This document shows positions 26,324 to 47,340 of a stretch of 64,000 nucleotides of DNA, in pieces. The notes under the pieces were generated by a model, which was given only the letters and a program-made list of their open reading frames with translations, ran no database searches and was not told where the DNA came from. The stretch lies in the NCBI RefSeq assembly GCF_037911585.1, contig NZ_JBAJNS010000001.1, positions 686,001-750,000 on the forward strand. The letters run 5' to 3'. The position numbers were made by a program, and so were the translations under genes. The number at the start of each line of letters is the position of its first letter. Position 1 is the stretch's first letter. The DNA comes from Streptomyces sp. GSL17-111 (GTDB lineage: Bacteria; Actinomycetota; Actinomycetes; Streptomycetales; Streptomycetaceae).

Positions 26324-28975
26324 TCAGACGGCGGGCTTGAGGGTCGCGGAGCGCAGGGCGTCCCGCAGGGCGGGCCCGATCACGGCGAGCGCGTCGGGAC
26401 GCATCAGGCGCAGGTGCTCACTGGCCACCGGGACGGTCCGGATCTCCCCGGTGACGTAGGGGCGCCACAATTTCGCCGCTCCCGCGCCCCGGCCGCCGGG
26501 CGCGGACTCGAAGAGCACCAGCGAACCGTCGAACACCGGTGTCTCGACGTCGGGTTCGTCGAGCAGGCGCATGGTGTTCTCCGTGACGGCCAGGAGCGCG
26601 TCGATCAGTTCCGCCTCCAGTCCGGGGGGCGCGTCCTTGCCGTCGAAGGCCACGGCGCGGACGTCCGCTGGTCCGGCGGCGGTCTCCTGCGGACCGCCGG
26701 CCGGCCAGGCGTCGATGGCGGCCAGCAGCGCGACCTGGTGCCCCGCGTCGCGCAGCCGTGCGGCGACGGCGTGGGCGGCGGTGCCTCCGAAGGACCAGCC
26801 GGTCAGCAGATACGGCCCCCGCGGTTGTTCGGCGGTGATGAGGGAGCAGTAGTCGGACACGAGCGCGCCGAAGCTCGTCGCGAGCCGGTCCCGGCCGTCG
26901 AGGCCCCGAGCCTGGACGGCGTACACCGGATGCTCCGCCGGCACGTGCGGGAGCAGCCCGGTGTAGCTCCACCCCAGCCCGCTGCCGGGATGGAGGCACC
27001 ACAGCGGACTGCCGTCGCCGCCGGCGCGCAGCCGCACCAGCGGGTCGAGCGGTCCGCGGGCACTCGGCTGCTCCCGTAGCAGTCCGGCCACCGTCGGCTC
27101 CAGGAAGATCTGCTGCATCGAGACGTCGATGCCGACCGCCTGCCGGGCCGAGCGGATCAGCCGGGGCACCAGGAGGGAGTGGCCGCCCAGTTCGAAGAAG
27201 TTGTCCTCGACGCCGACCTCCCGCGCACCCAGCACCTCGGCGAAGACGCCGCACAGCGCCGTCTCGGCGGGAGTGCGCGGAGCGAGGCGCCCGGCGGGCG
27301 GGGCGCTGAACTCCGGCAGCGGCAGTGCGGCCCGGTCGAGTTTGCCGTTCGTGGTGAGCGGAAGCCTGCCGACCGCCAGGACGGCCGAGGGCACCATGGC
27401 CGCCGGCAGGCGTCGGGCGACGGACGTGCGCAGGCCGGCCAGGTCCAGCTCCTCGCGCAGGCCCTCTTCGGGGACGACGTAGCCGACGATCCGGCGGTCG
27501 CCGGGGGCGGGCTCGTGCACCAGCGCCGCACTCCGCGCGACCTGCGGGTCGGCCAGCAACGCGGCCTCGACCTCGCCGAGTTCGATCCGGTGCCCCCTGA
27601 TCTTGACCTGCCCGTCCGCCCGCCCGACGAACTCCAGCCCGCCCGTCGGCAGCCAGCGCACCAGGTCGCCCGTCCGGTACATGCGGGACCCGGCCGGCCC
27701 GTACGGGTCCGCCAGGAAGCGTTCCGCGGTCAGGCCGGGCTGCCGCAGGTATCCGCGGGCGACACCGGTGCCCGCGACGTACAGCTCACCCACCACGCCC
27801 CGCGGAACGAGACCGAGCACCTGGTCCAGCACGTACAGCCGGGCACCGGGACACGGCCCGCCGATCGGTACCGGGCCGGCGGGGACCGGTTCCCCGAGGG
27901 GGAGCGGGAACTCGGCGCAGTTGACGGTCGTCTCGGTCGGTCCGTAGCTGTTGTAGATCACCGTGTCCGGGTGCCGCAGACGCCAGCGCTCCATGGCCTC
28001 GCCGCGCAGGGGCTCGCCGCCGACGAGGAGGCACGCGGTGGGGGAGAGGTCGTGCGGTAGCGACTCCAGCAGATCCAGGTGGCTGGGGGTGATCTCCAGC
28101 AGCGCGGGCCGGGGCGCCCCGCCGTGGTCCGCTGCGGTCAGGTCCGTGAGGTGCAGGCAGCCACCGCTGACCAGGGGGAGGTAGACGGCGGAGACGGTCA
28201 GGTCGAAGGAGATCGACGAGTGGATCAGATTGATGCCCGACACCCCCGGGTAGGTGACCCGGCCCCGGCGCAGGTAGGCGCCGAGCGCACCGTGCTCCAC
28301 GACGACCCCCTTGGGGCGCCCGGTGGAGCCGGAGGTGTGGATCACGTAGGCGGGGTGGCCGGGGAGCAGCGGCCGGACGCGGTCGGCGTCGGTCAGATCG
28401 GCGTCGGACGGGTCGGCGTCGGACGGGTCGGCGTCGGACGCGTCCGGGGCGGTGGGGTCCGGGGCGCTGAGCCGGTGGAGATCGGCCACGGTGAGCAGGG
28501 GCACGTCCGCCACGCCGATCCGCCGGGCGAGTTCGGCGTTCCCGATCAACAGGCGGGGCGCGGCCTCCTCCAGCATCATGGCGATCCTGGCGGGCGGCAG
28601 TGCGGTGTCCACCGGCACGTAGGCGGCGCCGGACTTGAGCACCGCGAGCATCGCGGCGAAGGCGTCCGCGGACCGTGGCAGCACGACGGCGACCAGGTCC
28701 TCCGGCCCGATGCCCTGCCCGGCCAGCGCACGGGCCAGGCGGTTCGTCCGCCGGTTCAGCTCCCGGTAGCCGAGAACCGTGCCGCTCTCCACCAACGCGG
28801 GCGCGTCCGGAGTGCGGGCGGCCTGTTCCTCGAAGAGGCCGGGCAACGTGGCAGCACCCTCCCCCGACGGCACCCGGCCACCGGTACCGCACGCCAGCAA
28901 CCGCGCCCGCTCGCCGGACGTGAGGAGGGGAAGGCGGCTGATCCGCAGGTCGGGGTCGGCCACCGCCGCCTCCAC
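26324..28975 (-). CDS. NRPS A-PCP-thioesterase (3' part of frameshifted C-A-PCP-TE gene)
   Basis: 883 aa in this frame. Adenylation domain about residues 40-530 ([36 protein letters not shown]), then a PCP with GGHSLL, then a type I thioesterase with GWSFGG and a late His in SEHLRL. In the GrsA frame the pocket reads D-L-S-E-L-G-S-V-N-K; the FDLTV scaffold is typical of Asp/Asn-type domains, but Glu at position 278 is unusual. The preceding condensation domain lies in another frame, and this frame opens only at the C-A junction, so the two pieces are almost surely one gene, module 3 with product release. A four-unit 15-bp repeat lies before the A3 motif. Confidence 0.85.
28381..28440. repeat. 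15-bp tandem repeat in A domain
   Basis: Four head-to-tail 15-bp units (the first imperfect), each close to GGTCGGCGTCGGACG on the plus strand, encode a repeated Asp-Ala-Asp-Pro-Ser stretch in the surface loop before the A3 motif of the third NRPS adenylation domain. The period preserves the frame; slippage expansion is the likely origin. Confidence 0.8.
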
Positions 28976-30249
28976 CAGCCGGGTCCACCAGTGACGAGGG
29001 CGACGGCGGTCGGGGGGTCGAACAGGTCGAGGGCGTAGTCCAGGTTGCCGTACAGGCCGGCGGGGGCGAGTTCCGGGTCCGGCGCCCGCTCCCGCAGGTG
29101 CAGGGCGAGGTCGAACTTGGCGCTGTCGCCGTCCACCGGTTCCTCAACGGCGGTCAGACCGGGCAGCCGCGGGGTCTGCTCGGGCCCGTCCTCCAGTACG
29201 AGCATCACCTGGAACAGGGGGTTCCAGGCGGCGGACCGCTCGGGACGGAGCACGTCCACGAGTCGCTCGAACGGCAGGTCCTGGTGGGCGTAGGCGTCCA
29301 GGTCCACCTCGCGGACGCGCCCGAGGAGTTCGCGGAAGGTCGGATCGCCAGCGGCGTCGGTGCGGAGCACCAGCGTGTTGACGAACATGCCGATGAGGCC
29401 GTCCAGCGCCTCGTCGGTCCGTCCGGCGATCGCCGAGCCGACGGGGATGTCGGTGCCCGCGCCCAGCCGGGTCAGCAGGGCGACCACCCCGGCCTGGAGG
29501 GCCATGAACAGGCTCGCCTTCTCCTGCCGGGCCAGAGCCAGCAGGCGGCGGTGGGTGTCCGGGCCGAGCGAGACCGGTGCCGTGCCGCCCCGATGGGAGG
29601 CCACGGGGGGCCGGGGCCGGTCGGCGGGGAGGGCCAGGCAGTCCGGAAGCCCGTCCAGCTGACGCCGCCAGTAGGCGAGTTGTTCTCCGGCCAGACTTTC
29701 CGGGTCATCCTCCGCCGCCAGGAGCTCGTTCTGCCACAGCGTGTAGTCGGCGTACTGCACCGGCAACGGGTCCCAGTGCGGCGCGCGGCCCGCTCGCCGG
29801 GCCGTGTAGGCGGCAGCCAGCTCGTCCAGCAGGGGGGTGAGCGACCAGCCGTCCGCGGCGATGTGGTGTAACAGGACGAGCAGCACGTGCTCCCGTGCGC
29901 CCAGCCGGAAGAGGTGCGCGCGCAGTGGGATTTCCGTGGTGAGGTCGAAGACGTGGCCGGCCGCCGCGCGCAGTGCGTCGCCAAGCTCCGCCTCGCTGCG
30001 CACGACGACCGGCAGCGGCGGCCGGGCGGAGTCCGCGTCGAGCACGACCTGGTGAGGTTGGCCGTCGGCCTCGGGGAAGACGGTACGGAGGCTCTCGTGG
30101 CGCTCCACCACGTCGGCGATCGCCTCGGAGAGCGCGCAGTGGTCCAGTTCCCCGTGCAGCCGGTACGCCAGCGGGATGCGGTATCCGGCGCCGCCGTCCA
30201 GCTGGTTGAGGAACCAGATGCGGGACTGTGCGAACGACAAGGGGATCAC
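28756..30249 (-). CDS. NRPS condensation domain (5' part of frameshifted C-A-PCP-TE gene)
   Basis: Frame of 497 aa, of which about the first 420 residues are a condensation domain ([18 protein letters not shown] at 128-134, [18 protein letters not shown]). After ALVT near 28990 the translation turns into a low-complexity Arg/Pro-rich tail that is out of frame with the adjacent A domain, and it ends at 28756. The expected continuation is found one frame over, so a one-base indel at 28975-29020 is likely; a run of six G at 29012-29017 is one candidate. It starts at GTG behind AGGGAGAA, 63 bp after the upstream NRPS gene. A TTA codon sits at 29869-29871, just before the catalytic HH. Confidence 0.85.
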
Positions 30250-30312
30250 GGGTTCTCCCTGGGGTGGTCAGGCCGTGCGCGGGTGCGGGCGTGGTGCGGA
30301 GGCCGGCCGCGG

Positions 30313-33300
30313 TCACCGGGGACCGCCCGGTCGGGGCATGCGGTGCAGCGCGGCCCGCCGCGAGCGCGGCGCCTTCTCCAGTCGCTCCGCCAGGCCCGCG
30401 ACCGTCGGAGCCTCGAACAGGGTGCGCACCTCCATCTCCACGGCCAGGGCCGCCCGGACGCGGCCCGCCAAGCGGGTCGCCAGCAGGGAATGGCCGCCGA
30501 GGTCGAAGAAGGAGTCGTCGATGCCGACCCGGTCGAGCCCCAGCACCTCGGCGAAGAGCCCGCAGAGGGCCTTCTCACGTTCCGTCCGGGGTTCTCGCCC
30601 GGAGACCGACCGGGAGAAGTCGGGCGCCGGGAGCCGACTGTGGTGCACCTTGCCGCTCACGGTCAGCGGCAGGGCGTCCACCATCACCACGGCGGACGGC
30701 ACCATGAAGTCCGGCAGTACCCGGGCGGCGTGGGCCCGCAGCGCGGCCCCGTCGGTACGGGCGCCACGTGCCGGGACGACGTAGGCGGCCAGCCGCTTCC
30801 CGCCGGTGGCGTCCTCCCGTACCGCGACGGCCACCTGGGCCACGTCGTCGTGCCGGCCGAGCACCGACTCGACCTCGGCCGGCTCGATCCGGAAGCCACG
30901 CACCTTGACCTGGGCGTCGGTACGGCCCGCGTAGGCGAGTTGACCGTCGCGGGTCCACGTCACCAGGTCGCCGGTGCGGTACATGCGCGCTCCCGCCCCG
31001 TCGAACGGGTCGGCGACGAAACGCTGGGCGGTCAGTGCGGGCCGGTCCCAGTAGCCGCGGGCCAGGACGTCCCCGGCGATGTACAGCTCCCCGGTCACGC
31101 CGGGCGGTACGGGTCGCAGCCGCCGGTCCAGGACGTACATCCGGGCGTTGGCGATGGGTCCGCCCACCGGCGCGGTGAAGGACCGCCACCGCTCCAGTGC
31201 CGTGGGAAGGGTGAACGTGGTGACGAGGTGGGTCTCGGTGGGGCCGTAGAGGTTGTGCAGGCGACGCCCGGGCCGGGCCGCGACGAACTCGCGCACCCGG
31301 GGCGTCAGCCGCAGCACCTCACCGCCCTGGCTGAGGTCCCGGAGCGCGGGCAGGTCCAGCCGCTGCTCCGCGGCCGCCTCGCAGATCGCCTCCACCATCA
31401 CGTTCGGCGCGCACACCTCCTCCACCCGGTGCTCGTCGAGCCAGCGGACGAACGCCGCCGCGTCCCGCCGTACCGCGTCATCGGGCACCGCCAGCGTCTT
31501 GCCGGAGGTCAGCGTCTCGATGATCTCCCAGGCGGACACGTCGAAGCTGATCGCGGAGAACTGGGCGACGGCACCGCGCCGGGCTCCGGTCTCCCCGGCG
31601 GCGAGCCACTCGGCGTGCCACAGCACCAGGTTGACCAGCGGCCCGGCCGTCATCACCACGCCCTTGGGCGTGCCGGTGGAGCCCGAGGTGTGGATCACGT
31701 ACACCGGACTGTCCCGGACCAGCGGCGCGGTGCGCTCCTCGTCGGGCAGGTTGCCCTCCGGCTGCGCGGCCAGCGCGGCGGCCACGGCCGGCTCGTCCAG
31801 GAGGAGACGCTCCGGTCCGCCCGGCGGCAGCCCTGCAGCCGTCGCGGCGGTGCTCACCACGACGGCCGGGCGCACGTCGTCGAGGAGGAAGGTGATCCGC
31901 TCGGCCGGGTACTGCGGGTCCAGCGGCAGGTAGGCGGCGCCTGCCTTGAGCGTCGCCCACACCGCGACGGGCAGGACGACCGAGCGCGGGACCGCCAGGG
32001 CCACCACCGACTCCGGTCCGATGCCGCGCGCCGTCAGCAACCGGGCCAGCCGGTTGGCCCGGCGGTTCAGTTCGACGTAGGAGAGCGTGCCGTCGGGGGC
32101 GGTCACGGCGGGGTGCTGCGGCGTCTGGGCCACCCGCGCCTCGAACAGGTCGGGCAGCGACGTGTCGGGGACGGGCCGACGGGTGTCGTTCCAGTGCCGC
32201 AGCACACGGTCCTGTTCGCCGGGGACCCACAGCTCGTACCGGCTCACCGGCAGGGCCGGGTCGTGCGCCACGCCGTCCAGCAGCCGCAGCAGACGACCGG
32301 CCAGGCGCTCGACGGTGTCGTGGTCGAACAGGTCGGCGTTGTACTGCACCGTCCCGCTGAGCCCCGCGGCACCGCGGTCGGCCCGGTCCCGGTCGTCGAA
32401 CTCGAAGGCCAGGTCGAACGGGGAGGTGTGCGTCTCCACCATCTCCGCGCGGACCTCGACGTCCGGCAGGGTCAGCTCACCCGCGCGGGTGTTCCGCAGC
32501 GCCAGCACCACCTGGAAGAGCGGGTGCCAGGCCAGGGAACGGCCGGGTGCGAGCTCTTCCACCAGCAGCTCGAACGGCACGTCCTGGTGCGCGTAGGCGT
32601 GCAGGCAGTTCTCCCGCACCCGGCCGAGGAGTTCGGTGAACGGGGGGTCGCCGGAGAGGTCGGTACGCAGGACGAGGGTGTTCGCGAAGAAGCCGACCAG
32701 ATCCTCCAGCGAGTCGTCCGTGCGCCCGGCCACCGGCGCGCCGACGGGTACGTCGTCCCCCGCGCCGAGCCGGGAGAGCAGCACGGCCAGAGCTGCCTGG
32801 AGCACCATGAAGGTGCTCGCGCCGTGTGCGTGGGCGAGCTTGTGCAGCGCCTCGTGCAGTTCCTCCGGCACCTTCAGGGACACCGACCCACCCCGGTGGG
32901 AGGGTGTGCCCGGGCGTGGCCGGTCCGTCGGCAGCGGGGTCTCCTGCGGCAGGCCGTCCAGGACGTTCCGCCAGCGGTCGAGCTGTGTTGCCAGGGGGCT
33001 GTCCGGGTCGTCCCGTCGGCCCAGCGTCGCACGCTGCCACAGGGTGAAGTCGGCGTACTGCAGCGGCAACGGCTCCCACCGCGGCGCCTGGCCGGCATGC
33101 CGTGCGGCGTACGCGGTGGACAGGTCGCGCAGCAGCAGTTGTTCGGACCAGGCGTCGCCCGCGATGTGGTGGATCACCAGCAGCAGCACGTGCTCGTCCG
33201 CCCCGGACGTGAACAGGCGGGCGCGCAGCGGGATGTCCGACACCAGGTCGAAGGGCTCGACGGCCGCGCGCGCCAGCACGTCGGCCAGTTCCCCGGCCGC

Positions 33301-36300
33301 GACGGGTCGTGCCGGCAGCGCCGGCGCCACGGAGTCGACGGGGAGCACCTGCTGGTACGGCTCCCCGTCGACGGTGGGGAAGACCGTGCGCAGCGCCTCG
33401 TGCCGGTCGAGCACGTCCGTGAGCGCCGCCCGCAGCGCCGCGGTGTCCAGACGTCCCGTCAGGTGCAGCGCGACCGGGTGGTTGTAGGTGGCCCCCGGGC
33501 CTTGGAGCTGCCGCAGGAACCACAGCCGGGTCTGGGCGTACGACAGGGGAATCCGGTCGGGCCGCACCGCCGGGGTGGCCGGTTCGACCCGGGCCTGCCC
33601 CGTCCCGTCGAGCCGCTTCGCCAGTTCGGCGACCGTCGGCGCTTCGTAGACCGCGCGGATGCCGAGCTCCCGGCCGAGCACGGCCCGGATGCGGTTGAGC
33701 AGCCGGGTGGCCGCCAGGGAGTGACCGCCCAGTGCGAAGAAGCTGTCGTCCACGCCCACGTGGGACAGGCCGAGCACGTCCGCGAAGACGGCGCACAGCC
33801 TCTCCTCGACGGGGGTGGCGGGTGACCTCCCCCCGCCGGCCGGGGCGAACGACGGCTCCGGCAGCTCGGCCCGCACGTCGACCTTGCCCTCCGCCGTGAC
33901 GGGCAGCGACTCCAGGGGGACCACGGCGGCGGGCACGAGGTGCGCCGGCAGGAACTCCGCCGCCTGCCGGCGCACCGCCGCCGGGTCCACGGTCGCGCCG
34001 GGCGAGGGAACGACGTACGCGGCCAGGTAGCGGTCACCACGGTCGTCGTCACACACGCGCACCAGAGCCTGCCCGACGCCGTCGCAGCGCGCCAGCGCCG
34101 CCTGCACCTCGCCCGGTTCGATGCGGACGCCGCGCACCTTGACCTGGCTGTCCGCCCGTCCGACGAACAGCAGGTCGCCCTCCGGTGTCCAGCGGGCCAG
34201 GTCTCCCGTCCGGTACATCCGCGCCCCCGGTGGGCCGAAGGGGTCCGCGACGAACCGTGCGGCCGTCTGACCGGGGCGGCCGAGGTAGCCGCGGGCCAGC
34301 GCGGCGCCGGCGACGTAGAGTTCACCGACCACTCCGGCGGGCAGCAGCCGCAGCGCGCGGTCCAGCACGTACGTCCTGGTGCCCGGCACCGGGCGGCCGA
34401 TCGGTGGTGCTTCCCCCGCCTGCCCGGGCAGGCACACCTTCCGGGTCACCTCGACCGTGGTCTCGGTCGGACCGTAGGCGTTGTGCAGCGGGATGCCCGC
34501 GGCGGCGCAGCGGTGCACGAGGTCACCCGCGAGCGTGTCACCGCCGGCCGTCACCAGGCGCAGGTCCGGCAGTTCCTCGGGCCGCAGGGCGCGCAGGGTC
34601 GTGGGGGCCAGGTGCGCCACCGTCACCCGGTGACGCGCCAGGAGGCGCTGGAGCGCCTCGGTGTCGATGCGTTCGTCGTCGTCCGCCAGCACCACCGTCG
34701 CCCCGGCGGCGAGGGTGACGAGCAGTTCCAGCACGGAGGCGTCGAAAGTGAGTGAGGCGGCGGCCAGCACCCGGTCGTGCGGGACCAGGCCGTAGGCGGG
34801 GACGGTGTGCCGCACGAAGGCGGCGACGGCGCGGTGTTCGACGACGACGCCCTTGGGGCGTCCCGTCGACCCCGATGTGTGCAGGACGTACGCCGGGTGG
34901 GTGGGCAGCAGGGGCGACAGCCGGTCCGCGTCGGTCACCTCCGCGTCCGATCGCGCGGCCGCGTCGGCCGCGACCGCCGGGTCGTCCAGGGCGAGCAGGG
35001 ACCCCTCGGGCCAGGCGGCCGCCAGCCGCCCGGTGAACTCGGCCGTGGTGACGGCCAGCACGGGCCGGGTGTCACGCAGCAGGTAGGTGACGCCGTCGTC
35101 GGGGTGCGCCGGGTCGATCGGCAGGTAGGCGGCGCCGGCTCTGAGCACGGCGAGGACGGCCACCACCGTCTGGGCGGACCGGGGGAGCAGCAGGGCCACG
35201 TGCTTGCCCGGCCCGGCGCCGCGGCTGATCAGGGCCCGGGCCAGCCGGTTCACCCGCGCCGCCACCTCGCCGTAGGACAGCTGAGTGTCGCGAACGACCA
35301 CCGCGGGGGCATCCGGATCGCACGCCGCGCCGACCGCCGGCAGCGGGGGCAGCGTGGTCTCCGGAACGGGTGGCGCCGGCTCGTCCCAGGTGCGCGGAAC
35401 GCGGTCCCGGACGCTGTCGGCCAGCAGGTCGGCGCGCCCGACGGGGGTGTCGGGCGACGCACCGGTGACCCATTCCAACGCCTCGTGCAGCAGCGACGCG
35501 CAGGACGCGTGCTGCTGCACGTCGTACAGTTCGGGGTCCGCGTCGACCGCGAGCTGGATGCTGCGGTCGTGGGAGATGTCCCACACGGCGACGGACAGGT
35601 CCTGGAACGGACCGGCGGACAGGTTGCGGGCGGTGGCGGGCGCCCCGGCGAAGCTGATGCGGTAGTCGAACGGCATGACGTTGACGGAGACCGACCACGG
35701 GGCCTCGCCGGGCCGCAGCCCGGCGTCGTGCAGCAGGTCCTCGTACCGGTAGCGCTGGTGGCGCACGGCCTCCAGGACGCGCACCGCGCACTGCTCCACC
35801 AGGCTCCGTACCGACCTGCCCGGGTCCACGGCGACGCGCAGCGGCACGACGTTGGCCGTCATGCCGGGCACGTGCTGCTCCGCCCCCGGCGCACGCCCCG
35901 GTACGGCGAGCCCGAGCAGCACGTCCGTCTCCCCGGTGGCGCGGCTCACGCCCAGTGCCGTCGCCGCCACGACGAGCCCGGCCAGCTTGGAGCCCAGGGC
36001 GGTCGCGGCCGTACGGAGCCGGTTGGCGTCACCGGACGGCAGGTTCCGCAGGTGCCGACGGACGTCCCGGGCCGGCCCGCGCGGCGGCCGTCCGCTGAGG
36101 CTGAACCCCGTGGGGCGGTCGGCGAGCACGCTCCGCCAGTGCTCGCGGTCCGCTCGGAGCGCCGCCGAACCGCGGTAGGCGGCGTCGGCGTCAAGGAGGA
36201 CCTGGATCGGCTCGAACGGGCGGCCGAGGTCGTCGACGCCCTCGACGAGCCGCGTGTAGAGGTCCGCGACCCGGCCCGCGACGAGGAAGAGGCTGAAGCC

Positions 36301-36732
36301 GTCGCTGACGAGGTGATGGCCCCCCTGGTACCAGTGGTAGCGGTCGTCGTCCACCCGGAAGAGGGCGTAGCGGGCGAGCGGGTCGGTCAGCGGGTCGCGC
36401 GGTCTGCGGAGGTCGGCCCGCATCCACTCCAGGGCCGCGTCCCCCGGGTCCTCCCGGTCCCGGAGGTCGATGTGGTGCAGGGTGTGCCGGAGAGACGGAT
36501 CGACGGCCGCGGTCAGCGCTCCGTCGTCCTCCGAGAAGCGCAGCCGCAGCGCCTGCGCCTCCTGGACGGCCCGCCGCAGCGCCTCGTCGAACAGCGCGGT
36601 GTCGAGCGGGCCGGCGATGTCCAGGTACTCGCCCACGTTGAGGATCGGGCTGTCCGGATCGAACCGGTGGGCGTACCACAGGCCCCGCTGGCCGGGCATC
36701 AGGCCGACGGGCTCGGGACGGCGTTCTGGCAT
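30313..36732 (-). CDS. Two-module NRPS: C-A-PCP-C-A-PCP
   Basis: 2139 aa. C1 (about 1-430) has HHLVSDG at 139 and a text close to the EntF condensation domain, which joins an aryl acid to an amino acid. A1 has an inferred pocket D-A-L-H-V-A-A-V-E-K: aromatic-like, but with Glu at 331. PCP1: Ser1005. C2: HHIAGDA at 1188 (final Gly is Ala). A2 has a proline-type scaffold (FDVSAWE, YGPTETH) with pocket D-V-W-C-L-Q-L-L-V-K. PCP2: Ser2082. No epimerase or methylase domain is present. The start at 36732 (GGGG site upstream) is preferred over an ATG at 36822 that adds 30 unconserved residues. It lies in an operon after the amidinotransferase and MbtH genes. A2 probably takes the alkylproline made by the divergent operon. 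Confidence 0.9.
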
Positions 36733-36881
36733 CTCACACCCCAAATCAGGCGGCGTCGGCGGCCATGGTCGATGGCCGCGACGGTGCGGGGGCCGGTACG
36801 GCTTCCGCACGGCGGCGGTCACCGGTGTACGGGCCGTGGGCCGCCGAGGCGGGCGTTCGGTCCGCCCCGGTCACGGGTGGT

Positions 36882-37088: not shown

Positions 37089-37218
37089 GGAAACTCCTTC
37101 GGATCAGGCGTCGGAGTGTTCTCCTGTCGGGGTGTGGCCGGCCGCTCGGTGCCGAGGCTGACGGGCCCGGTGTTCCGCGGCGGCTCGCTCGGGTTCCTCC
37201 GGGTCGGCACGACGCGCC

Positions 37219-39791: not shown

Positions 39792-39842
39792 CCGGAACGG
39801 TCCTCACCACGGCCACCCGCACCGGACCGCCGAAGGAGAATC

Positions 39843-40334
39843 ATGAAGGCCCAGCCAGTTCCTCCGGTTTCCCCTCTCCCCCACACGTACCTTCACCACA
39901 TCGCGGTGCAGACGACCGACCTCGACAACTGCACCATGTGGTACCGCGACTTCCTCGGCTGCCAGCGCACCTGGGCGACGGACCGTTTTTCCGACCTGAC
40001 GGTGAGCCGTCTGCCGGGCATCGTGCGCATGGCCGAACTGGCCTGCGGAGAAACCCGCTTCCATCTCTTCGAAAGCGCGGCCTCGGGTGAAGGGAGGCCC
40101 CACCCGCACGAGACGCAGTTCCAGCACGTGTGCATGGCCGTCGATTCTCCGGACGCCCTGCGCCGACAGCGCGAGTCCTGGTGGGAACTGGCTCGTTCCG
40201 GCCGGTACGCGTTCTCCCTGCCGGACCCGCCCACCGAGATCGTCATGGACGACGACGGGGTGAAGAGCTTCTACTGCCTCGACGTCAACGGTCTGGAGTT
40301 CGAGTTCACCCACCTCCCGGCGGGCGCCTCGTGA
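39843..40334 (+). CDS. L-DOPA 2,3-dioxygenase, VOC fold (LmbB1-like)
   Basis: 163 aa single-domain vicinal-oxygen-chelate protein. Candidate metal ligands: His in YLHHIAVQ, His in FQHVCMAV and Glu in GLEFEFTH. The N-terminal run DLDNC-x-WYRDFLGC matches LmbB1/HrmF-type enzymes as I recall them. In the lincomycin and pyrrolobenzodiazepine pathways this enzyme opens the ring of L-DOPA, and the product cyclises to a yellow pyrroline intermediate. An AAGGAG site precedes the ATG. The stop overlaps the start of the tyrosine hydroxylase gene (GTGA), so hydroxylation and ring opening are translationally coupled. The family call rests on motif and neighbours together. Confidence 0.85.
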   Translation: MKAQPVPPVSPLPHTYLHHIAVQTTDLDNCTMWYRDFLGCQRTWATDRFSDLTVSRLPGIVRMAELACGETRFHLFESAASGEGRPHPHETQFQHVCMAVDSPDALRRQRESWWELARSGRYAFSLPDPPTEIVMDDDGVKSFYCLDVNGLEFEFTHLPAGAS

Positions 40335-41281
40335 CCCCCGGTTCCGCGGCGGCCCTCGCCCTCCCCGGCACCGGAAGCTGGGACTTCAGCGACTACCCCT
40401 ACGGTCTGGAGCCGCTCACCCTCCCGCATCCGGGGGAGCCGTACGCCACCGAGGGATGCGTACGGCACGCCGACGTGCGGCAGGTGTGTCGGGCCCTCCA
40501 CACCCGCGCGGAGGAGGGACTTGAGATCACCCGGCCCGCCGCCGGGTTCACGTTGGAGCGGTTGTTCTGGTTCCGCTGGATCACCGGACACCAGATCTCC
40601 TTCGTCATCTGGCGGCTGCTCGCGGACGCCCTGGCCCGGCTCTCCGCGGGCGAGGGCGACCGCGAGGAGCTGTCGGCGGAGATCACCCAGCACGTGCGCG
40701 GGTACTGCGGAATGCTGCTCTACACCGGCTCCTGCGATCGCGCCGTCTACAACGGCACCATCCGGCCGAGCATGTACCGCCTGCACAGCACCTTCAGCGG
40801 CACGTGGGCACCCGACTACCCGGCGGTGCGCAGCCTCTTCCGCGGGCGGAGGGTGCCACCCGTCGCGGCCTCGCAGGTTGAGGCGCTGGTGCGGGAGGTG
40901 CGCCTCAGCAGCCGGATCCACCTCGGCGTGGCCTCGAAGCTCGTCACCGGAGGGCGCTCCCTGCTCCAGCGGTCCATCGCCGACCGGGACACCGTCCAGC
41001 CGCGGATGTGGGGCGCCGTCTTCGACTGCTACTTCCTGACCCTGCGCGCCCCGGTCTCGTCGCCGGAGGTCGCCTCCCAACTCCTGCGCAGGCAGAAGGC
41101 CGTCGTCATGGACCTGGCCGCGAACGGTCTTTACCCCGCCGCCGGCAGCGACGAGGTCCCCAAGGAACTGCGGCAACCGGACGTCCTCGCGTGTGAGGAG
41201 GACCTGACCGAGTCCCTCTTCCGGATCGCCCGTCTGGCCGCCGGGCTGCCCCTCGACCGTGCGCGGGCGGCAGCCCGGTGA
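40331..41281 (+). CDS. Heme-dependent L-tyrosine 3-hydroxylase (LmbB2-like)
   Basis: 316 aa, close to the length of LmbB2, HrmE and anthramycin Orf13. Typical family text is the block YNGTIRP-x-MYRLHSTFSG-x-W and an all-helical body as in the tryptophan-dioxygenase superfamily. It should convert L-tyrosine to L-DOPA, the first committed step to 4-alkyl-L-prolines. GTG start overlaps the stop of the dioxygenase gene, and the stop overlaps the next GTG, so the block is tightly coupled. It could be mistaken for a tryptophan 2,3-dioxygenase; the complete set of lincomycin-type neighbours argues for tyrosine hydroxylation. Confidence 0.86.
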   Translation: MTPGSAAALALPGTGSWDFSDYPYGLEPLTLPHPGEPYATEGCVRHADVRQVCRALHTRAEEGLEITRPAAGFTLERLFWFRWITGHQISFVIWRLLADALARLSAGEGDREELSAEITQHVRGYCGMLLYTGSCDRAVYNGTIRPSMYRLHSTFSGTWAPDYPAVRSLFRGRRVPPVAASQVEALVREVRLSSRIHLGVASKLVTGGRSLLQRSIADRDTVQPRMWGAVFDCYFLTLRAPVSSPEVASQLLRRQKAVVMDLAANGLYPAAGSDEVPKELRQPDVLACEEDLTESLFRIARLAAGLPLDRARAAAR

Positions 41282-42180
41282 GCGGGCTGCGACACGGTGT
41301 GGTCCTGCTGCCCGAGCACCGATGGGCACGGGCACGGGAACTCTGGGCCCGGGCGGAGACCTTCGGCTTCGACCACGCGTGGACCTACGACCACCTCACG
41401 TGGCGCACCCTGCGCGACGAGCCGTGGTTCGGGACGGTGCCCACGCTCACGGCGGCGGCGACAGCCACCTCGCGCATCCGCCTGGGCACGCTGGTGGCCA
41501 GCCCGGCCTTCCGGCACCCGGTGACGTTCGCAAAGGAACTGACGGCGCTCGACGACATCTCCGGCGGACGGCTCGTCTGCGGGCTGGGCGCCGGAGCGGG
41601 CGGCCACGACGAGGAGGTGCTGGGCTCGAAGCCGCCGTCGCCCTCCCAACGTGCACAGCGGTTCGAGGAGTTCGTCGAGCTGACCGACCTGCTGCTGCGG
41701 TCGCCGGTGACGGACTACACGGGCAGGTACTTCACCGCCGTCGACGCGCGTACCGTCCCCGGGAGCGTGCAGCAGCCGCGGGTGCCGTTCGCCGTCGCTG
41801 CCACCGGCCCCCGCGGCATGCGACTGGCGGCCCGGTACGCCGACGTCTGGGTGACGGCCGGGCAGCCCGGCTGGGGTGAACCCGCCCGCTACGACCACGC
41901 CGTCCCGCACCTGGCCGGCCAGGTGCGTGCGATGGAGGAGGCGTGCGCCGCGATCGGACGCGACCCCTCCACGGTGCGTCGCCTGGTGGTGACCGGGGCG
42001 ATGATCCGCCACGTCTCCGACTCGGTCTCCGCCTACCAGGACGCCTGCGGACTGTTCGAGGCCGCCGGCTTCACCGACGTCGTCATCCACTGGCCCCGGG
42101 ACGGCTTCCCCTACCAGGGCCGCATCGAGGTCCTGGAGGACATCGCCCACACCGTGCTCACCCCCGGAGGTGCCCCGTGA
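41278..42180 (+). CDS. F420-dependent LLM-class reductase (LmbY-like)
   Basis: 300 aa luciferase-like (alpha/beta barrel) oxidoreductase. Family text: FDHAWTYDHL, IRLGTLVASP, FRHPVTFAKEL, DDISGGRLVCGLGAG. In lincomycin biosynthesis LmbY reduces the pyrroline ring double bonds with reduced coenzyme F420; hormaomycin and some pyrrolobenzodiazepine clusters carry homologues. How many double bonds are reduced decides whether the proline ring is saturated or keeps an exocyclic ethylidene. Starts at GTG overlapping the previous stop, and its own stop overlaps the next gene (GTGA). No other F420 gene is in the window; the cofactor would come from general metabolism. Confidence 0.85.
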   Translation: MSGLRHGVVLLPEHRWARARELWARAETFGFDHAWTYDHLTWRTLRDEPWFGTVPTLTAAATATSRIRLGTLVASPAFRHPVTFAKELTALDDISGGRLVCGLGAGAGGHDEEVLGSKPPSPSQRAQRFEEFVELTDLLLRSPVTDYTGRYFTAVDARTVPGSVQQPRVPFAVAATGPRGMRLAARYADVWVTAGQPGWGEPARYDHAVPHLAGQVRAMEEACAAIGRDPSTVRRLVVTGAMIRHVSDSVSAYQDACGLFEAAGFTDVVIHWPRDGFPYQGRIEVLEDIAHTVLTPGGAP

Positions 42181-43043
42181 TCCGCTACGAGGTGGTCGAC
42201 ATGTTCACCGACCGCCCCTTCGCCGGCAGCACCCTGGCGGTGGTCCCGGACGCCGAGGGCCTGTCCACCGCGTCCATGAGCGCGATCGCAGCGGAGCTGG
42301 GCGCCGTGGAGACGGCGTTCGTGCTGCCGGCCACGGCACCGGACGCCACCTACCGGGTCCGGGTGTTCACCCCCACCGCGGAATCCCCCGGGGGAGGCCA
42401 CTCCTGTGTCGGCACAGCGGCGACGCTGGTACGGGTCGGTGCCGTCCCGGCCGGGCGGGTGGTCCAGGAATGCGGGCCGGCCCGGCACGTCCTGACCGCA
42501 CGGGCCGACCGTGCGACGCTCACCCTCACCGGACCGGTTCCGGGTGCCGACCTCGACCCGGCACCGCTGCTCGCGGCAGTCGGTCTCGCCGCCGAGGACG
42601 CGTCCGGTGGGAATCCCCGCGCCGAGGGCTTCGGAACCCCCTTCACCTTCCTGCCGGTACGGGAGGCGGCTCTCGCCCGGGCGGAGCCGGAACCGGCCCG
42701 GATGGCCGCCGCCGCACTCCCCGCTCTGTGCCTCCTGCACTGGGACGGCTCCCGGCGCGCCGCCCGCACCCGGCTCTTCGCACCCGGCTTCGGCATCGCC
42801 GAGGACCCGGCGTGCGCACCGGTGGCCGCCGCCCTCGGGCTGTGGCTGGCCGGGACCGGCCGACTGCCCAACACGGACGGCGACCACACCTACACGCTCC
42901 ACCAGGGCACCGAAGCGGGCCGGCCCGCCCTGCTGACGTGCACGCTCACCGTGGCGAACGGCTCCCCCGCGCAAGCCGCCGTGACGGGCCGCGTGACGGC
43001 GGTCGCCCACGGCCGGATCACCGCCCCGCACACCGTCCGGTGA
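42177..43043 (+). CDS. PhzF-family isomerase (LmbX-like)
   Basis: 288 aa with two related hot-dog-like halves. PhzF-family marks: DMFTDRPFAGSTLAVV at the start, the catalytic-type Glu in GAVETAFVLP, and the GGGHSCVGTA loop. In lincomycin biosynthesis LmbX shifts a double bond of the alkylproline precursor before reduction by LmbY. The true start is GTG 42177 with GGAGG upstream, overlapping the LmbY-like stop; a longer frame opening at 41943 is not real. Part of the six-gene alkylproline block. Confidence 0.87.
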   Translation: MIRYEVVDMFTDRPFAGSTLAVVPDAEGLSTASMSAIAAELGAVETAFVLPATAPDATYRVRVFTPTAESPGGGHSCVGTAATLVRVGAVPAGRVVQECGPARHVLTARADRATLTLTGPVPGADLDPAPLLAAVGLAAEDASGGNPRAEGFGTPFTFLPVREAALARAEPEPARMAAAALPALCLLHWDGSRRAARTRLFAPGFGIAEDPACAPVAAALGLWLAGTGRLPNTDGDHTYTLHQGTEAGRPALLTCTLTVANGSPAQAAVTGRVTAVAHGRITAPHTVR

Positions 43044-43064
43044 CTCTCCTGGGAAGGACCCCCT

Positions 43065-44858
43065 GTGCTGCTCCGTCCCGAACTGCACGGCATCCACGGC
43101 GCCGTCTCCTCCACCCACTGGCTCGCCTCGGCGACGGGAATGGCGATGTTCGACCGCGGCGGCAACGCCTTCGACGCCGCGACGGCCGCCGCCCTCGTCA
43201 TCCAGGTCGTGGAACCCCACCTCAACGGCCCCGGCGGGGACGCCCCGATCCTGCTCCACGACGCGGCGAGCGGCAGGGTGGAGGTCCTCTGCGGGCAGGG
43301 GCCGATGCCCGCGGCGGCCACCACCGACGCCTTCCGGCAGCGTGGGCTGGACGCGGTCCCCGGCTCGGGGCTGCTGGCGGCGTGCGTGCCGGGCGCGTTC
43401 GGCGCGTGGATGCGGCTCCTGCGTGACCGCGGGCGCCTCCGGGTCGAGGACGTGCTGCTGCCCGCCATCGGGTACGCCGAGGACGGGTATCCCCTGCTGC
43501 CCAAGGCCGCCGAGATGATCAGCGTGATGGCTCCACTGTTCCGCGACGAGTGGACCGAGTCCGGCCGCACCTATCTGGACCACGGCACCGCACCGGCGGC
43601 CGGGTCCCGGATGCGCAACCCAGCCCTGGGACGGACGTTCAGACGCATTCTGGCCGAGGCCCGAGCGGCCGGACCCGACCGCGAAGCCCAGGCCGAAGCC
43701 GCACGGGCGGCCTTCTACCAGGGTTTCGTCGCCGAGGCCGTGGACCGGTACATGGCCACCGGCTCGGCCGTCGACGCCACGGGCCGCAGGCACGGCGGCC
43801 TGCTCACCGGAGAGGACCTGGCCTCGTGGCGGCCGCCCGTGGAAACACCCGCCTCCTTCGACTACCGCGGCCACCTGGTGCACAAGCCCGGACCGTGGTC
43901 GCAGGGCCCGGTCTTCCTCCAGCAACTGGCACTCCTGGAGGGTTTCGACCTGACGGCCGCGGGGCACGGCAGTGCCGACCACCTGCACACCGTGGTCGAG
44001 TCGGCGAAGCTCGCCTACGCCGACCGGGAGGCCTGGTACGGCGACCCGGTCCACGCCGACGTGCCGCTGGCCGCCCTGCTCGACCGCGACTACGCGGCGA
44101 AGCGTCGCGAGCTCATCGGGCCCACCGCGTCCGGAGTGCTGCGTCCCGGCTCACCCGACGGCCGCACCCCGCACGTCGCCGAGTGCCTCGACCGCTCCGG
44201 GGCGCCCACCGACCCGGACTGGCTCGCCCAACTGCACAACGGCATACCCACCGTGCTGCTGCGGACCGCGGCCAAGGGGGACACCACCTGTGTCACCGCC
44301 ACCGACCGGGAGGGCAACATGGTCGTCTCGACGCCCAGCGGCGGCTGGCTCAAGAGCTCCCCCGTGGTGCCGGGCCTCGGCTTCCCCCTCGGCACCCGTG
44401 GACAGATGGCATGGCTGACCGAGGGGCATCCCAACTCCCTCGCGCCCGGCAAGCGTCCGCGCACCACGCTGAGCCCCACCCTCGTGCTGAAGGAAGGACG
44501 CCCCCACCTGGCCTTCGGCACACCGGGCGGGGACCAGCAGGACCAGTGGACACTGCACTTCTTCCTCAACCATGTCGACTTCGGCATGACACCGCAGCAG
44601 GCCACGGAGGCGACCACGTTCCACACCGACCACGTCCCCACCTCGTTCACGCCACGTCAGTCGCGTCCGCTCGCCCTGGTGGCCGAGCAGGGCTTCGACC
44701 CGGCCGTGCTGGAGGAGCTGGGCCGTCGCGGGCACGAGGTCCGCGAGGTCCCGGCACAGACCCTCGGCAAGGTGTGCGCGACGGGCGTGGACGGCGGTTG
44801 CGGCGTGGTCGCCGCGGCCAGTCCGCGTGGAGGCCAGGCCTACGCCGTCGTCCGGTGA
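43065..44858 (+). CDS. Gamma-glutamyltransferase homologue (LmbA-like)
   Basis: 597 aa Ntn-hydrolase of the gamma-glutamyltranspeptidase family. The self-cleavage/nucleophile site is Thr407 in GDTTCVT, followed by TDREGNMV. GTRGQMAWL and GTPGGDQQ match the C-terminal subunit. In the lincomycin pathway LmbA is proposed to break a carbon-carbon bond, removing a two-carbon unit from the ring-opened DOPA product, rather than to act on glutathione. No obvious signal peptide is present, unlike periplasmic GGTs, which supports a biosynthetic role. GTG start behind GGGAAGGA, 21 bp after the isomerase gene. Confidence 0.86.
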   Translation: MLLRPELHGIHGAVSSTHWLASATGMAMFDRGGNAFDAATAAALVIQVVEPHLNGPGGDAPILLHDAASGRVEVLCGQGPMPAAATTDAFRQRGLDAVPGSGLLAACVPGAFGAWMRLLRDRGRLRVEDVLLPAIGYAEDGYPLLPKAAEMISVMAPLFRDEWTESGRTYLDHGTAPAAGSRMRNPALGRTFRRILAEARAAGPDREAQAEAARAAFYQGFVAEAVDRYMATGSAVDATGRRHGGLLTGEDLASWRPPVETPASFDYRGHLVHKPGPWSQGPVFLQQLALLEGFDLTAAGHGSADHLHTVVESAKLAYADREAWYGDPVHADVPLAALLDRDYAAKRRELIGPTASGVLRPGSPDGRTPHVAECLDRSGAPTDPDWLAQLHNGIPTVLLRTAAKGDTTCVTATDREGNMVVSTPSGGWLKSSPVVPGLGFPLGTRGQMAWLTEGHPNSLAPGKRPRTTLSPTLVLKEGRPHLAFGTPGGDQQDQWTLHFFLNHVDFGMTPQQATEATTFHTDHVPTSFTPRQSRPLALVAEQGFDPAVLEELGRRGHEVREVPAQTLGKVCATGVDGGCGVVAAASPRGGQAYAVVR

Positions 44859-44961
44859 GCGGAGGTCGGGAAGGAGGCGGGCCCGTGCACCCCGCGACCC
44901 CGCGCGGCGGGCATCGACGCGGTCCCCTCGGGAACGCCGGCCGGTGTGCGAGGGTGCCCGC

Positions 44962-46254
44962 GTGACGTCGCCGCCAGGGCGTCGCGGGACGCGTCGACCA
45001 AGCCGCCTGGGACGGACGTTCACGCTGCTGTGGTCGGCGTCGTGGGTCTCCTCGGTCGGTGACGGGATGCGGGAGGCGGCGCTTCCCCTCCTCGTGGTCT
45101 CGGTGTCCGCCTCACCCGGTGCCGTCGCGGTGGTCGCAGCCGCCGGGACCCTGCCGTGGCTGCTGGTGTCGCCCTTCAGCGGAGCCCTCGCGGACCGGCT
45201 CGACCCCCGGTGGCTGATGATGTCCACCGACACGTCGAGGGCGGTGGTGGTGGCCGGGTTCGCCGTGTGGACGCTCGTGGGAAGTCCGCCGCTGCTCGCT
45301 CTCGCACTGGTCGCGTTCGCGCTCGGCTGCGGTGAGACCCTCTTCGACAACGCGGCCATGTCGATGGTGCGGGACGTCGTCCCCGCCGACCGGCTCGACC
45401 TCGCCAACGGCCGCCTCCAGGGCAGCCAGATCGTGGGCGGCCACTTCGTGGGGCCGCTGCTCGGTTCCGCGCTGTTCGCGGTGGCCGCCGGCCTGCCCTT
45501 CGTCGTGGACGGGTTCACCTTCGCCCTCGCCGCGGTGCTGCTCGCCGTCGCGGGCCGCTCCGGCCGCCCGGCGCCCGTGCGGGGCCGGCGACCGATACTG
45601 ACCGAGATCGGGGACGGCGCCCGCTGGCTCTGGAACCACCGGGGACTTCGCCTGCTCGCCGTGGTCTGCACGGTCGCCACCCTGGCCTTCTACCTCGGCA
45701 TGACGCTGCTCGTCCTGCTGGTCACCCGGCACCTGGACGCGCCCCCGCTCCTGTACGGCGTGGTACTCGCAGCCGGTGCCGTCGGCGGTGTCCTGGCCGG
45801 TTTCGGAGCCGGACGGATCAGCGACCGGCTGGGACTGCGTTCCCGCATCGGCCTGGCCTTGGCCTCCATGGCGGTGTCGATGTCCGTGATGGGTCTGAGC
45901 ACATCGGTGGCCCTGGTGGCGGCGATGTACGCGGTCGCCGGTTTCGGTGTGGTCAGCTGGAACGTGCAGGTGGTGACGCTGCGTCAACGCATCGTCCCAC
46001 GGGAGTTGTTCGGTCGTGTCAACAGCGGCTACCTGCTGGCCAGCCGGCTGGGCATGCTCCTCGGGGCCACCCTCGCCGGATGGATCGGGAGCGCCCTCGA
46101 CATCCGCGCCCCCTTCTTCCTCGGCGGCGCCCTCCTGCTGCTCAGTCTCGCCGCCGTTCCCCGCCTGGCCGGTCTCAACCCGGCCCCGACCCCAGGCTCC
46201 GGCACGGCGGCGAAACCACCGGCGGACGCCTCGCCGCAACCGGACTCACGCTGA
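44962..46254 (+). CDS. MFS transporter (exporter)
   Basis: 430 aa integral membrane protein with about twelve hydrophobic helices and the cytoplasmic loop motif GALADRLDPR between helices 2 and 3, typical of drug-exporting major facilitator proteins (MFS_3 / enterobactin-exporter-like). Start GTG 44962 is chosen because it has GAGGG 7 bp upstream and gives a short positive N terminus; upstream in-frame sequence overlaps the previous gene and is Arg/Pro-rich without conservation. Last enzyme-side gene before the regulator, so export of the NRPS product, or self-resistance, is likely. Confidence 0.85.
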   Translation: MTSPPGRRGTRRPSRLGRTFTLLWSASWVSSVGDGMREAALPLLVVSVSASPGAVAVVAAAGTLPWLLVSPFSGALADRLDPRWLMMSTDTSRAVVVAGFAVWTLVGSPPLLALALVAFALGCGETLFDNAAMSMVRDVVPADRLDLANGRLQGSQIVGGHFVGPLLGSALFAVAAGLPFVVDGFTFALAAVLLAVAGRSGRPAPVRGRRPILTEIGDGARWLWNHRGLRLLAVVCTVATLAFYLGMTLLVLLVTRHLDAPPLLYGVVLAAGAVGGVLAGFGAGRISDRLGLRSRIGLALASMAVSMSVMGLSTSVALVAAMYAVAGFGVVSWNVQVVTLRQRIVPRELFGRVNSGYLLASRLGMLLGATLAGWIGSALDIRAPFFLGGALLLLSLAAVPRLAGLNPAPTPGSGTAAKPPADASPQPDSR

Positions 46255-46506
46255 CGACAGCACGCCGACAAGCGCAGTGGGGTCGCCGCAGTAACCGGCC
46301 TGTGATGAAGCCCACGTGGCGTGTATGTGTAATTCTGCGCAGGCATGTCGGCCACCGGGGAATGTCACCCGACGGATACCGGGGCGACGTATTGCCACAT
46401 CATCCGGAGATCAACGGGGCTTGTCTTCAAGGAACGCCCAAGTACGCTGTGGCGGAGCATTCTTGAGCCATCGCAATTCATGGAACACGCGCCCTTCCAC
46501 GTACCC

Positions 46507-47340
46507 ATGAACGCTCGCGCAACCGTCCTTCGCCGCAGCTCCGGAGGTGTGACCGTCATCGTCGGCAACGCAGTGACTTTCCATGTTCTCGGCCCTCTGG
46601 ATGTGTATCTGAACGACCGTCCGGTCCCTCTCGGGTCGGCACGGCAGAGAGCCGTCCTGTCAACACTCCTTCTTACTCCGGGGCAACCCGTCACCACGGA
46701 ACAGCTCACCGAAGCCGTATGGCCCGGAAAGGCTCCCGCCCGTACGGCGGCGAATCTGCACAGCTACGTGTCCCATCTCCGCCGGGTCCTGGAACCGCAC
46801 GGTCCGCCCCGGCAGCGGCATCACCTGCTGCGCCGGGAGCAGGGCGGCTACGTGCTCGCCGGGGACCCCGAGAGTCTGGACGCCGTCCGCTTCGAGCGGC
46901 TCCTGCACGAGGGCCGCGCGCTGTCGACGGCGGGACGCCACCAGGAGGCGAGCCGGACCTTACGCGAGGCCCTGGCCCTGTGGCGCGGCGGTGCACATCC
47001 GGAGGTGAGCGACTACACACCCGGCGCGCATGCCGCCGCCCGCTACGAGGAGCTGCGGCTCGTCGCGCTCGAGAGCCTGTGGGAGGCCGAACTGGCCTCG
47101 GAGAGCGACGTCTCGGTGCCGACGGCAGACCTGGCGGAGCTCAGCGCCCGCTTCCCCACCCACGAGCGGTTCAGCCTGCTCCTCATGAAGGCGCTCCACC
47201 GCTCGGGCCGCCGGGCCGAAGCCATCGACACCTACCACCGCACACGCCGGACGCTCGCCGAGGACTACGGCATCGATCCCGGTGTGGAACTCCAGGAACT
47301 GTTCGGTCGCATCCTCTGCGGAGAGCCGGCCGTGAGCTGA
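46507..47340 (+). CDS. SARP-family pathway activator
   Basis: About 277 aa from ATG 46507. It has an OmpR-type winged-helix DNA-binding domain (VTFHVLGPLDVYL, AVWPGKAPARTAANLHSYVSHLRRVL) followed by a bacterial transcriptional activation domain (about residues 110-270). There is no ATPase extension, so it is a small SARP. Such proteins bind direct heptamer repeats near -35 boxes and recruit RNA polymerase to antibiotic genes. A TTA codon at 46960-46962 makes translation dependent on the bldA tRNA. The start is uncertain: ATG 46480 and GTG 46549 are in frame. The 250 bp upstream are relatively AT-rich and probably contain its promoter. It lies between the alkylproline operon and the PKS genes and may control either or both. 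Confidence 0.85.
   Translation: MNARATVLRRSSGGVTVIVGNAVTFHVLGPLDVYLNDRPVPLGSARQRAVLSTLLLTPGQPVTTEQLTEAVWPGKAPARTAANLHSYVSHLRRVLEPHGPPRQRHHLLRREQGGYVLAGDPESLDAVRFERLLHEGRALSTAGRHQEASRTLREALALWRGGAHPEVSDYTPGAHAAARYEELRLVALESLWEAELASESDVSVPTADLAELSARFPTHERFSLLLMKALHRSGRRAEAIDTYHRTRRTLAEDYGIDPGVELQELFGRILCGEPAVS

Follow-up and report, generated by a model that had tools for sequence, protein, structure and literature searches.

A window of 64,000 nucleotides from Streptomyces sp. GSL17-111, that is, bases 686001-750000 of contig C1 in a genome of 6.03 Mb and 5 contigs, contains a biosynthetic locus in which a cassette for 4-alkyl-L-prolines adjoins a three-module nonribosomal peptide synthetase (NRPS). 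The cassette (LmbB1-B2-Y-X-A, 39843-44858, plus strand) is divergent from the genes for an amidinotransferase, an MbtH-like protein and the NRPS (26324-38358, minus strand). This arrangement had been put forward in an earlier, sequence-only reading of the window and was borne out; every gene named there is present, and its coordinates were correct (Table 1). Not in that list was a methyltransferase gene which heads the cassette, 51 bp before the lmbB1-like gene. Its product, a methyltransferase of the MppJ type, is the new element in the alkylproline pathway.

Table 1. Features of the locus in window positions, with strand and supporting matches (A, adenylation; C, condensation; PCP, peptidyl carrier protein; TE, thioesterase; MFS, major facilitator superfamily; SARP, Streptomyces antibiotic regulatory protein)
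Feature	Position	Strand	Evidence
A3-PCP3-TE part of NRPS module 3, code DLSELGSVNK	26324-28975	-	Pfam AMP-binding 3e-75, PP-binding, Thioesterase 3.2e-23
C3 condensation domain of module 3, separate frame	28756-30249	-	Pfam Condensation 2.9e-80
NRPS C1-A1-PCP1-C2-A2-PCP2, 2169 aa	30313-36822	-	Pfam; A1 DALHTGAVEK, A2 DVWCSGLLVK
MbtH-like protein	36882-37088	-	Pfam MbtH 2.9e-27
AGAT-family amidinotransferase, predicted Arg:Lys (homoarginine)	37219-38358	-	PDB phmmer HsvA 9.6e-124, SxtG 1.1e-121, AGAT 6.5e-114
MppJ-type C-methyltransferase, predicted to β-methylate 4-hydroxyphenylpyruvate	38793-39791	+	PDB MppJ 4kib E 6.7e-120
LmbB1-like L-DOPA 2,3-dioxygenase	39843-40334	+	weak NCBIfam matches to vicinal-oxygen-chelate proteins
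LmbB2-like heme-dependent L-tyrosine hydroxylase	40331-41281	+	PDB 7kqr E 1.6e-78, 8r2s E 9.9e-78 (L-tyrosine hydroxylases)
LmbY-like F420-dependent reductase (LLM oxidoreductase)	41278-42180	+	Pfam Bac_luciferase 3.3e-45; top NCBIfam matches are F420 LLM subfamilies, below cut-off
LmbX-like PhzF-family isomerase	42177-43043	+	Pfam PhzC-PhzF 1.3e-38; TIGR00654 above cut-off
LmbA-like γ-glutamyltranspeptidase homolog (C-C bond hydrolase)	43065-44858	+	Pfam G_glu_transpept 1.8e-108
MFS exporter (start inferred)	~44962-46254	+	Pfam MFS_3/MFS_1
SARP-type regulator	46345-47340	+	Pfam BTAD 1e-34, Trans_reg_C

The three junctions between the LmbB1, LmbB2, LmbY and LmbX genes are each a 4-base overlap, and translation from LmbB1 to LmbX is therefore probably coupled. 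GTDB contains 97 named loci encoding an LmbB2 relative, of which 80 were kept and analyzed with flanks of at most 10 kb, genes lying further off being missed; in 73 of these 80 a homolog of LmbB1 is found directly upstream of that of LmbB2 on the same strand. Compared by eye with the motif described in PMC5519988, the LmbA-like protein retains the Asp-Thr self-cleavage pair. Of the features of the 4-alkyl-L-proline derivative (APD or ALDP) pathways, an LmbB2-type hydroxylase and homologs of LmbB1, LmbA (with its Asp-Thr pair) and LmbY occur here in one locus.

Including the window, the cluster was found in 8 genomes. The seven others are all actinobacterial: S. chumphonensis KK1-2 (G200), S. 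sp. 13-12-16 (G201), Nocardiopsis ansamitocini, Embleya scabrispora DSM 41855 (G020, the same as G203), a second Embleya-type genome (G004), S. sp. NRRL WC-3742 (G096) and Allostreptomyces psammosilenae (G015), one of which is without the amidinotransferase. As these genes come together again in seven further genomes, their co-occurrence is more than chance. Marker genes of the cluster are also carried by Nocardiopsis sp. NPDC050513; a search of the genus around N. ansamitocini, which covered one genome, gained nothing. LmbB2-like matches, from weak to strong, are present in 31 of 200 Streptomycetaceae genomes.

The closest solved relative of the window methyltransferase is MppJ, to which it is identical at 188 of 326 residues (58%). 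Residues W99, R127, M240, H243, D244 and H295, which we take to be the active-site residues of MppJ, are all kept (6/6). On this identity and these residues the enzyme is an MppJ-type C-methyltransferase, with a predicted activity on arylpyruvates. As described in PMC6117699, MppJ acts on phenylpyruvate, adding the methyl group at the benzylic carbon; JomM, which is 55% identical to MppJ, is required for the jomthonic acids, which hold β-methylphenylalanine. MppJ-type relatives with 50-54% identity also occur beside NRPS genes in three loci (L160-L162) which have no LmbB1 or LmbB2 in the 18-20 kb fetched; their products are probably β-methyl amino acids.

Two other identities were rejected. 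The window methyltransferase shares 25-28% identity over some 216 aa with SibZ (P0283) and with a Por10-like protein of S. albus (P0241), and the MppJ-type and SibZ-type families split at 100/100 support in the methyltransferase tree (a first tree left out one 100-aa piece, a second also L163). The window protein falls outside the group of SibZ and the Por10-like protein in this tree, which is one without LmbW itself, and an identity of the LmbW/SibZ type was set aside. SibZ matches MppJ only at about 1e-12; in PMC6085390, LmbW is 26% identical to MppJ, and LmbW, Ant5, SibZ, HrmC and Por10 are treated as homologs. With SibZ as query, no SibZ-type enzyme was found at E ≤ 1e-20 in any of the eight core genomes or in S. 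catenulae, matches being present in two of the 11 genomes queried (S. sp. S465 and S. antibioticus). Both types of methyltransferase lie within one locus in S. sp. S465 (L042) and S. noursei (L098), and because both are present there they are not interchangeable in these loci. Nor is 2-ketoarginine methyltransferase the best identity, since TIGR04543 gives 69 bits against a cut-off of 425 and the PDB enzyme an E-value of 1.4e-4 against 6.7e-120 for MppJ.

The LmbB2 protein, whose place among the known families the sequence-only reading had left to a phylogeny, falls within the family, where it groups with the sister clusters in a separate clade. Core and sister proteins together form one clade of 11 rows with 100/100 support. 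Six of 89 rows were dropped from this tree (4 with an internal stop, 2 short), among them the core member L041/L011; in this locus, from S. sp. NRRL WC-3742, the LmbB2-like gene has an in-frame TGA, and the other core genes were found. An MppJ-type methyltransferase is present in 10 of the 11 loci of the clade, the eleventh (L039) being a 9.4-kb contig which starts inside the NRPS. Residues specific to the clade (L75, S153, T154, V178, Q223, W227 and K256) may reflect a changed substrate.

The four sister clusters (L038, L039, L042 and L043) have no amidinotransferase or LmbX within the available flanks. Three of them have the MppJ-type methyltransferase, and the same three have a middle A domain with the code DVMTGG(C/G)MAK; L042 and L043, the latter from S. 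antibioticus, additionally carry the SibZ-type enzyme. These sister clusters possibly make 3-methyl-4-(three-carbon)-prolines. In another LmbB2 cluster (L164-L166, G132) an amidinotransferase with 63% identity lies some 41 kb off on the same contig.

The PDB amidinotransferase matches of the window enzyme range in E-value from 9.6e-124 to 1.7e-111; Pfam gave no match at 1e-4. D211, H260 and C362 align with D254, H303 and C407 of AGAT, which presumably form its catalytic triad, so that the triad is kept. The predicted acceptor is lysine, which would give homoarginine. Among the 80 named LmbB2 loci an amidinotransferase is present in five, all belonging to this cluster. At E ≤ 1e-100 the enzyme was found in 16 of the 200 Streptomycetaceae genomes: four of these are at least 78% identical and all belong to this cluster, and the other 12 are 53-63% identical. 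In a class-wide sample searched at E ≤ 1e-140 the sole match in 394 was that of the window itself.

Codes of the A domains were obtained by MAFFT alignment against a GrsA-PheA fragment, and were partly repeated. That of A1 is DALHTGAVEK in the window, S. chumphonensis and S. sp. 13-12-16 and D(A/G)LHSG(A/G)V(E/D)K in the others, with an acidic residue (E/D) at code residue 331 in all eight clusters; A1 is predicted to accept a cationic residue, homoarginine. The A2 code, DVWC(S/G)GLLVK, is constant throughout the eight and is predicted to specify the alkylproline. It is unlike DVMY(A/T)VMLAK of the sampled pyrrolobenzodiazepine-like loci and unlike the code of the three sister clusters. A3 has six codes among the eight clusters, those of the window and S. 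chumphonensis differing at three positions. In a comparison with S. chumphonensis by 300-base bins, identity falls to 88-90% in the A3 stretch (27900-28800), the median being 95%, and this is the least conserved coding stretch; the lone bin below it (26100) is mostly intergenic. The A3 codes resemble, as far as we can judge, no standard Leu or Trp code. Residues 1 and 2 are probably constant and residue 3 varied between strains, as the codes would have it, and constant A1 and A2 with a varied A3 suit a family of analogs.

The NRPS begins with a C domain bearing an HHxxxDG motif, and because of this start an acyl or aroyl cap is likely. At the other end the TE bears the motif GWSFGG, and linear release is assumed. 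An extra A-domain gene lies downstream in both Embleya-type genomes (G004/G020) and in NRRL WC-3742. The A-PCP, Asn-synthase and other genes downstream in G004 and NRRL WC-3742 are not shared, and suggest extra loading or tailoring there.

From the gene identities, their conservation and the absence of any detectable methyltransferase of the LmbW/SibZ type we infer the substrates and product as follows. The MppJ-type enzyme would methylate 4-hydroxyphenylpyruvate at its benzylic carbon, and transamination by a host enzyme would then yield β-methyltyrosine, on which LmbB2-like hydroxylation, LmbB1-like ring opening, LmbA-like removal of oxalyl, LmbX-like isomerization and LmbY-like F420-dependent reduction would act. 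Because the C-β of tyrosine becomes ring C-3 of the proline in the alkylproline pathway, the output of the cassette would be 3-methyl-4-ethylideneproline. With no SibZ-type enzyme in any of the eight genomes, the alkylproline set is that of tomaymycin, a 4-ethylidene case, plus the MppJ-type enzyme. The amidinotransferase would move the amidino group of arginine to lysine, and the NRPS would join the acyl cap, homoarginine, the methylated ethylideneproline and the third residue into a peptide released by the TE.

The order N-acyl, guanidino residue, alkylproline, third residue had been suggested in the sequence-only reading, and it fits the starting C domain, the acidic A1 of all eight clusters, the constant A2 and the varied A3, the product remaining a prediction. 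On balance we lean towards an N-acyl tripeptide with a guanidino residue, likely homoarginine, followed by what is likely 3-methyl-4-ethylideneproline and by a third residue which probably varies with the strain. The wider proposal, in which an MppJ-type methyltransferase placed ahead of LmbB2-B1-A-X-Y would turn the whole pathway over to β-methyltyrosine and 3-methyl-4-ethylideneproline, and in which this would account genetically for both the lucentamycins and a family of guanidino tripeptides, seems to us evenly poised.

The role of the methyltransferase might be a different one. It might do the work of LmbW, with the keto acid in the side chain of ring-opened DOPA as its substrate, which would give a three-carbon alkylproline with no ring methyl. 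LmbW and MppJ are described in PMC6085390 as having a common mechanism and key residues; moreover the gene heads the cassette, and no other candidate for LmbW was found in the core genomes. The much greater identity to MppJ than to SibZ and the Por10-like protein (58% against 25-28%), and the presence of both types together in L042 and L098, make this quite unlikely in our view. We would also call it unlikely that, as for mannopeptimycin or jomthonic acid, the enzyme makes a separate β-methyl-Phe or β-methyl-Tyr which is loaded as such, for instance by module 3, and that the proline is plain 4-ethylideneproline. This is the known function of MppJ and JomM, the relatives beside NRPS genes without alkylproline genes agree with it, and loci with two methyltransferases such as L098 would fit a hormaomycin-like product, which presumably contains β-methyl-Phe; yet A3 takes six forms although all clusters keep the methyltransferase, and the gene stands at the head of the cassette and tracks its LmbB2 clade. 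Methylation, in the manner of MrsA, of the β-carbon of a 2-keto guanidino acid derived from the amidinotransferase product is hinted at by TIGR04543 being the top NCBIfam match, but appears very improbable, both from the scores given above and because A. psammosilenae has the methyltransferase without the amidinotransferase.

A further alternative, that the cluster is decaying, concerns this strain only and is compatible with any functional reading for its relatives. Module 3 had been described as C-A-PCP-TE; its domains are indeed present, but they do not form one open gene in this sequence, C and A-PCP-TE being in different frames. Near 29.0 kb the window differs by one base from both near relatives, S. 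chumphonensis and S. sp. 13-12-16, in which A-PCP-TE lies in one open frame of 1309 aa; the corresponding part of the window is 88% and 92% identical to it. Single frames of 1293-1316 aa span module 3 in S. chumphonensis, N. ansamitocini, G004, G020 and NRRL WC-3742. The break is either an assembly error or real. Because module 3 is frame-broken, production of the peptide in the sequenced strain is doubtful unless this is a sequencing error. The remaining genes are open, identity to S. chumphonensis is 93-99% in the 300-base bins between 29.1 and 44.7 kb, and a single-base assembly error is equally possible; we therefore keep decay, with module 3 broken and no product here, in view as a minority possibility.

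Returning to the tripeptide with 3-methyl-4-ethylideneproline, the idea of a lucentamycin-like product, which the sequence-only reading had raised, is strengthened by the MppJ-type methyltransferase, which would explain the methyl at position 3, and by the lucentamycin C formula, though it is unproven. We take homoarginine to be a lucentamycin residue. N. ansamitocini and N. sp. NPDC050513, the two Nocardiopsis carriers of the gene set or of marker genes from it, belong to the same genus as the lucentamycin producer. The lucentamycins are described in PMC2707044 as 3-methyl-4-ethylideneproline peptides from N. lucentensis, with an IC50 of 0.20 µM for lucentamycin A on HCT-116 cells. Subtraction of homoarginine, 3-methyl-4-ethylideneproline, leucine and water from the formula listed for lucentamycin C, C26H46N6O5 (PMC7918646), leaves C5H8O, that is, a C5 acyl cap. 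This formula agrees with, but is not unique to, a C5-acyl tripeptide free acid with one four-nitrogen residue, such as three modules would make; the module count and the starting C domain agree with this composition as well. Lucentamycins A and B are noted as carrying phenyl and indole rings (PMC9310018), and lucentamycin B is listed among tryptophan-derived peptides (PMC4557006). A varying cap would suit a cluster family with no shared acyl-loading gene.

Several observations weigh against this interpretation, the frame break in module 3 of this strain among them. The formula listed for lucentamycin C would equally be reached by a C6 cap together with either arginine in place of homoarginine or a proline lacking the ring methyl, and it gives no order of residues. 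In the open-licence literature, which leaves subscription journals mostly outside, we found no published lucentamycin cluster or genes for 3-methyl-4-ethylideneproline, and no paper with both "ethylideneproline" and "homoarginine." Relatives of the amidinotransferase with 70-90% identity, mostly of unclear context, fill the best 120 of 4204 matches besides the window's own (a second set of proteins was likewise the best 120 of 595), so that the enzyme is not specific to the cluster and its acceptor is unproven. No amidinotransferase was found at E ≤ 0.001 in the genome of A. psammosilenae, which is 98% complete, and this means that the enzyme is not obligatory for the family; the A1 code of this species is nearly unchanged all the same (DALHSGAVDK), and either this organism loads Arg or Lys or A1 is broad. 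Among the codes compared from PMC12283262 and PMC3874040, A1 fits the published Arg pattern in part and A2 fits no proline or alkylproline code, differing from the proline pattern VQ(Y/F)IAHVV given in the latter. No dedicated aminotransferase or acyl-loading gene (acyl ligase, carrier protein) was seen in common to the clusters, the Pfam scan of flanking genes in the relatives comprising 10 selected proteins. Finally, the MppJ relatives of L160-L162, which occur without LmbB1 and LmbB2, imply that the window enzyme could supply a residue other than the proline.

For 3-methyl-4-ethylideneproline the cluster provides specific enzymes that can be tested; this is the residue by which the lucentamycins are described. 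The cluster also provides a signature for genome mining, namely an MppJ-type methyltransferase with LmbB1/B2/Y/X/A and an A domain with the code DVWC[S/G]GLLVK. It also offers a natural series in which mainly residue 3 appears to change. If true, our proposal would add to alkylproline biosynthesis a second route of methyl addition, to a ring carbon by way of an arylpyruvate as against the side chain by way of LmbW, and would supply the genetic basis of the lucentamycins and of guanidino tripeptides which keep residues 1 and 2 and diversify residue 3.

On the right the SARP gene is followed directly by a type I polyketide synthase gene (47736-55280, plus strand) with two acyltransferase, ketosynthase (KS), dehydratase, ketoreductase (KR) and two carrier domains. 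In S. chumphonensis this gene is conserved as far as the end of the contig there; nothing matched it at E ≤ 1e-10 in the regions of 40-55 kb taken from N. ansamitocini, A. psammosilenae, NRRL WC-3742 and the two Embleya-type genomes; the two short S. sp. 13-12-16 contigs end before that point. The SARP gene likewise occurs in the S. chumphonensis region and in that of no other relative. Because among the regions fetched both are found only in that of S. chumphonensis, they are probably outside the shared core, and the polyketide synthase was rejected as a part of it; the SARP may serve this cluster, the adjoining polyketide synthase, or both. The MFS exporter is missing at the corresponding place in S. 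chumphonensis.

On the left a hybrid synthetase (6163-14100, minus strand) with KS, class-III aminotransferase, luciferase-like monooxygenase, C and carrier domains precedes an A-KR-carrier protein (2058-6104, minus strand). Its layout presumably resembles that of β-amino fatty acid lipopeptide systems. Nearby, up to 20962, are stand-alone A and C genes and two genes for ABC transporters, all of which are outside the collinearity with S. chumphonensis. As this collinearity ends at 21509, the hybrid too was rejected as a part of the core. A MurA-type enolpyruvyl transferase with an N-terminal helix-turn-helix (HTH_3/HipB-like; 24640-26169, plus strand) adjoins an aconitase gene and is collinear in S. 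chumphonensis.

Among known systems, the lucentamycins of Nocardiopsis lucentensis CNR-712 share the predicted 3-methyl-4-ethylideneproline, a likeness resting on the predicted residue and the formula. Lincomycin, anthramycin, sibiromycin and porothramycin have homologs of LmbB1, B2, A, X and Y, as does the window, but use methyltransferases of the LmbW/SibZ type, none of which was found in the window cluster. In hormaomycin, as here, the alkylproline cassette lies within an NRPS cluster; the compound, which contains β-methyl-Phe, is a larger depsipeptide than the predicted product of the window, and we know of no amidinotransferase in it. The comparisons in PMC4780272 give hormaomycin no LmbX, and tomaymycin, the two-carbon case, homologs of LmbX and LmbY with none of LmbW. 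The five functions of the tomaymycin pathway (TomI, TomH, TomL, TomK and TomJ) are shared by the window, and neither has an LmbW homolog; the window adds the MppJ-type methyltransferase and feeds a tripeptide NRPS with a TE, whereas tomaymycin feeds a benzodiazepine. AmtA and McyK are named as bacterial homoarginine amidinotransferases in PMC12283262, and the reaction proposed for the window enzyme is the same. With MppJ (mannopeptimycin) and JomM (jomthonic acids) the product is β-methyl-Phe, whereas their homolog in the window is proposed to feed the alkylproline cassette. The NRPS of the pyrrolobenzodiazepines has two modules, for anthranilate and alkylproline, and reductive release; that of the window differs in its three modules ending in a TE.

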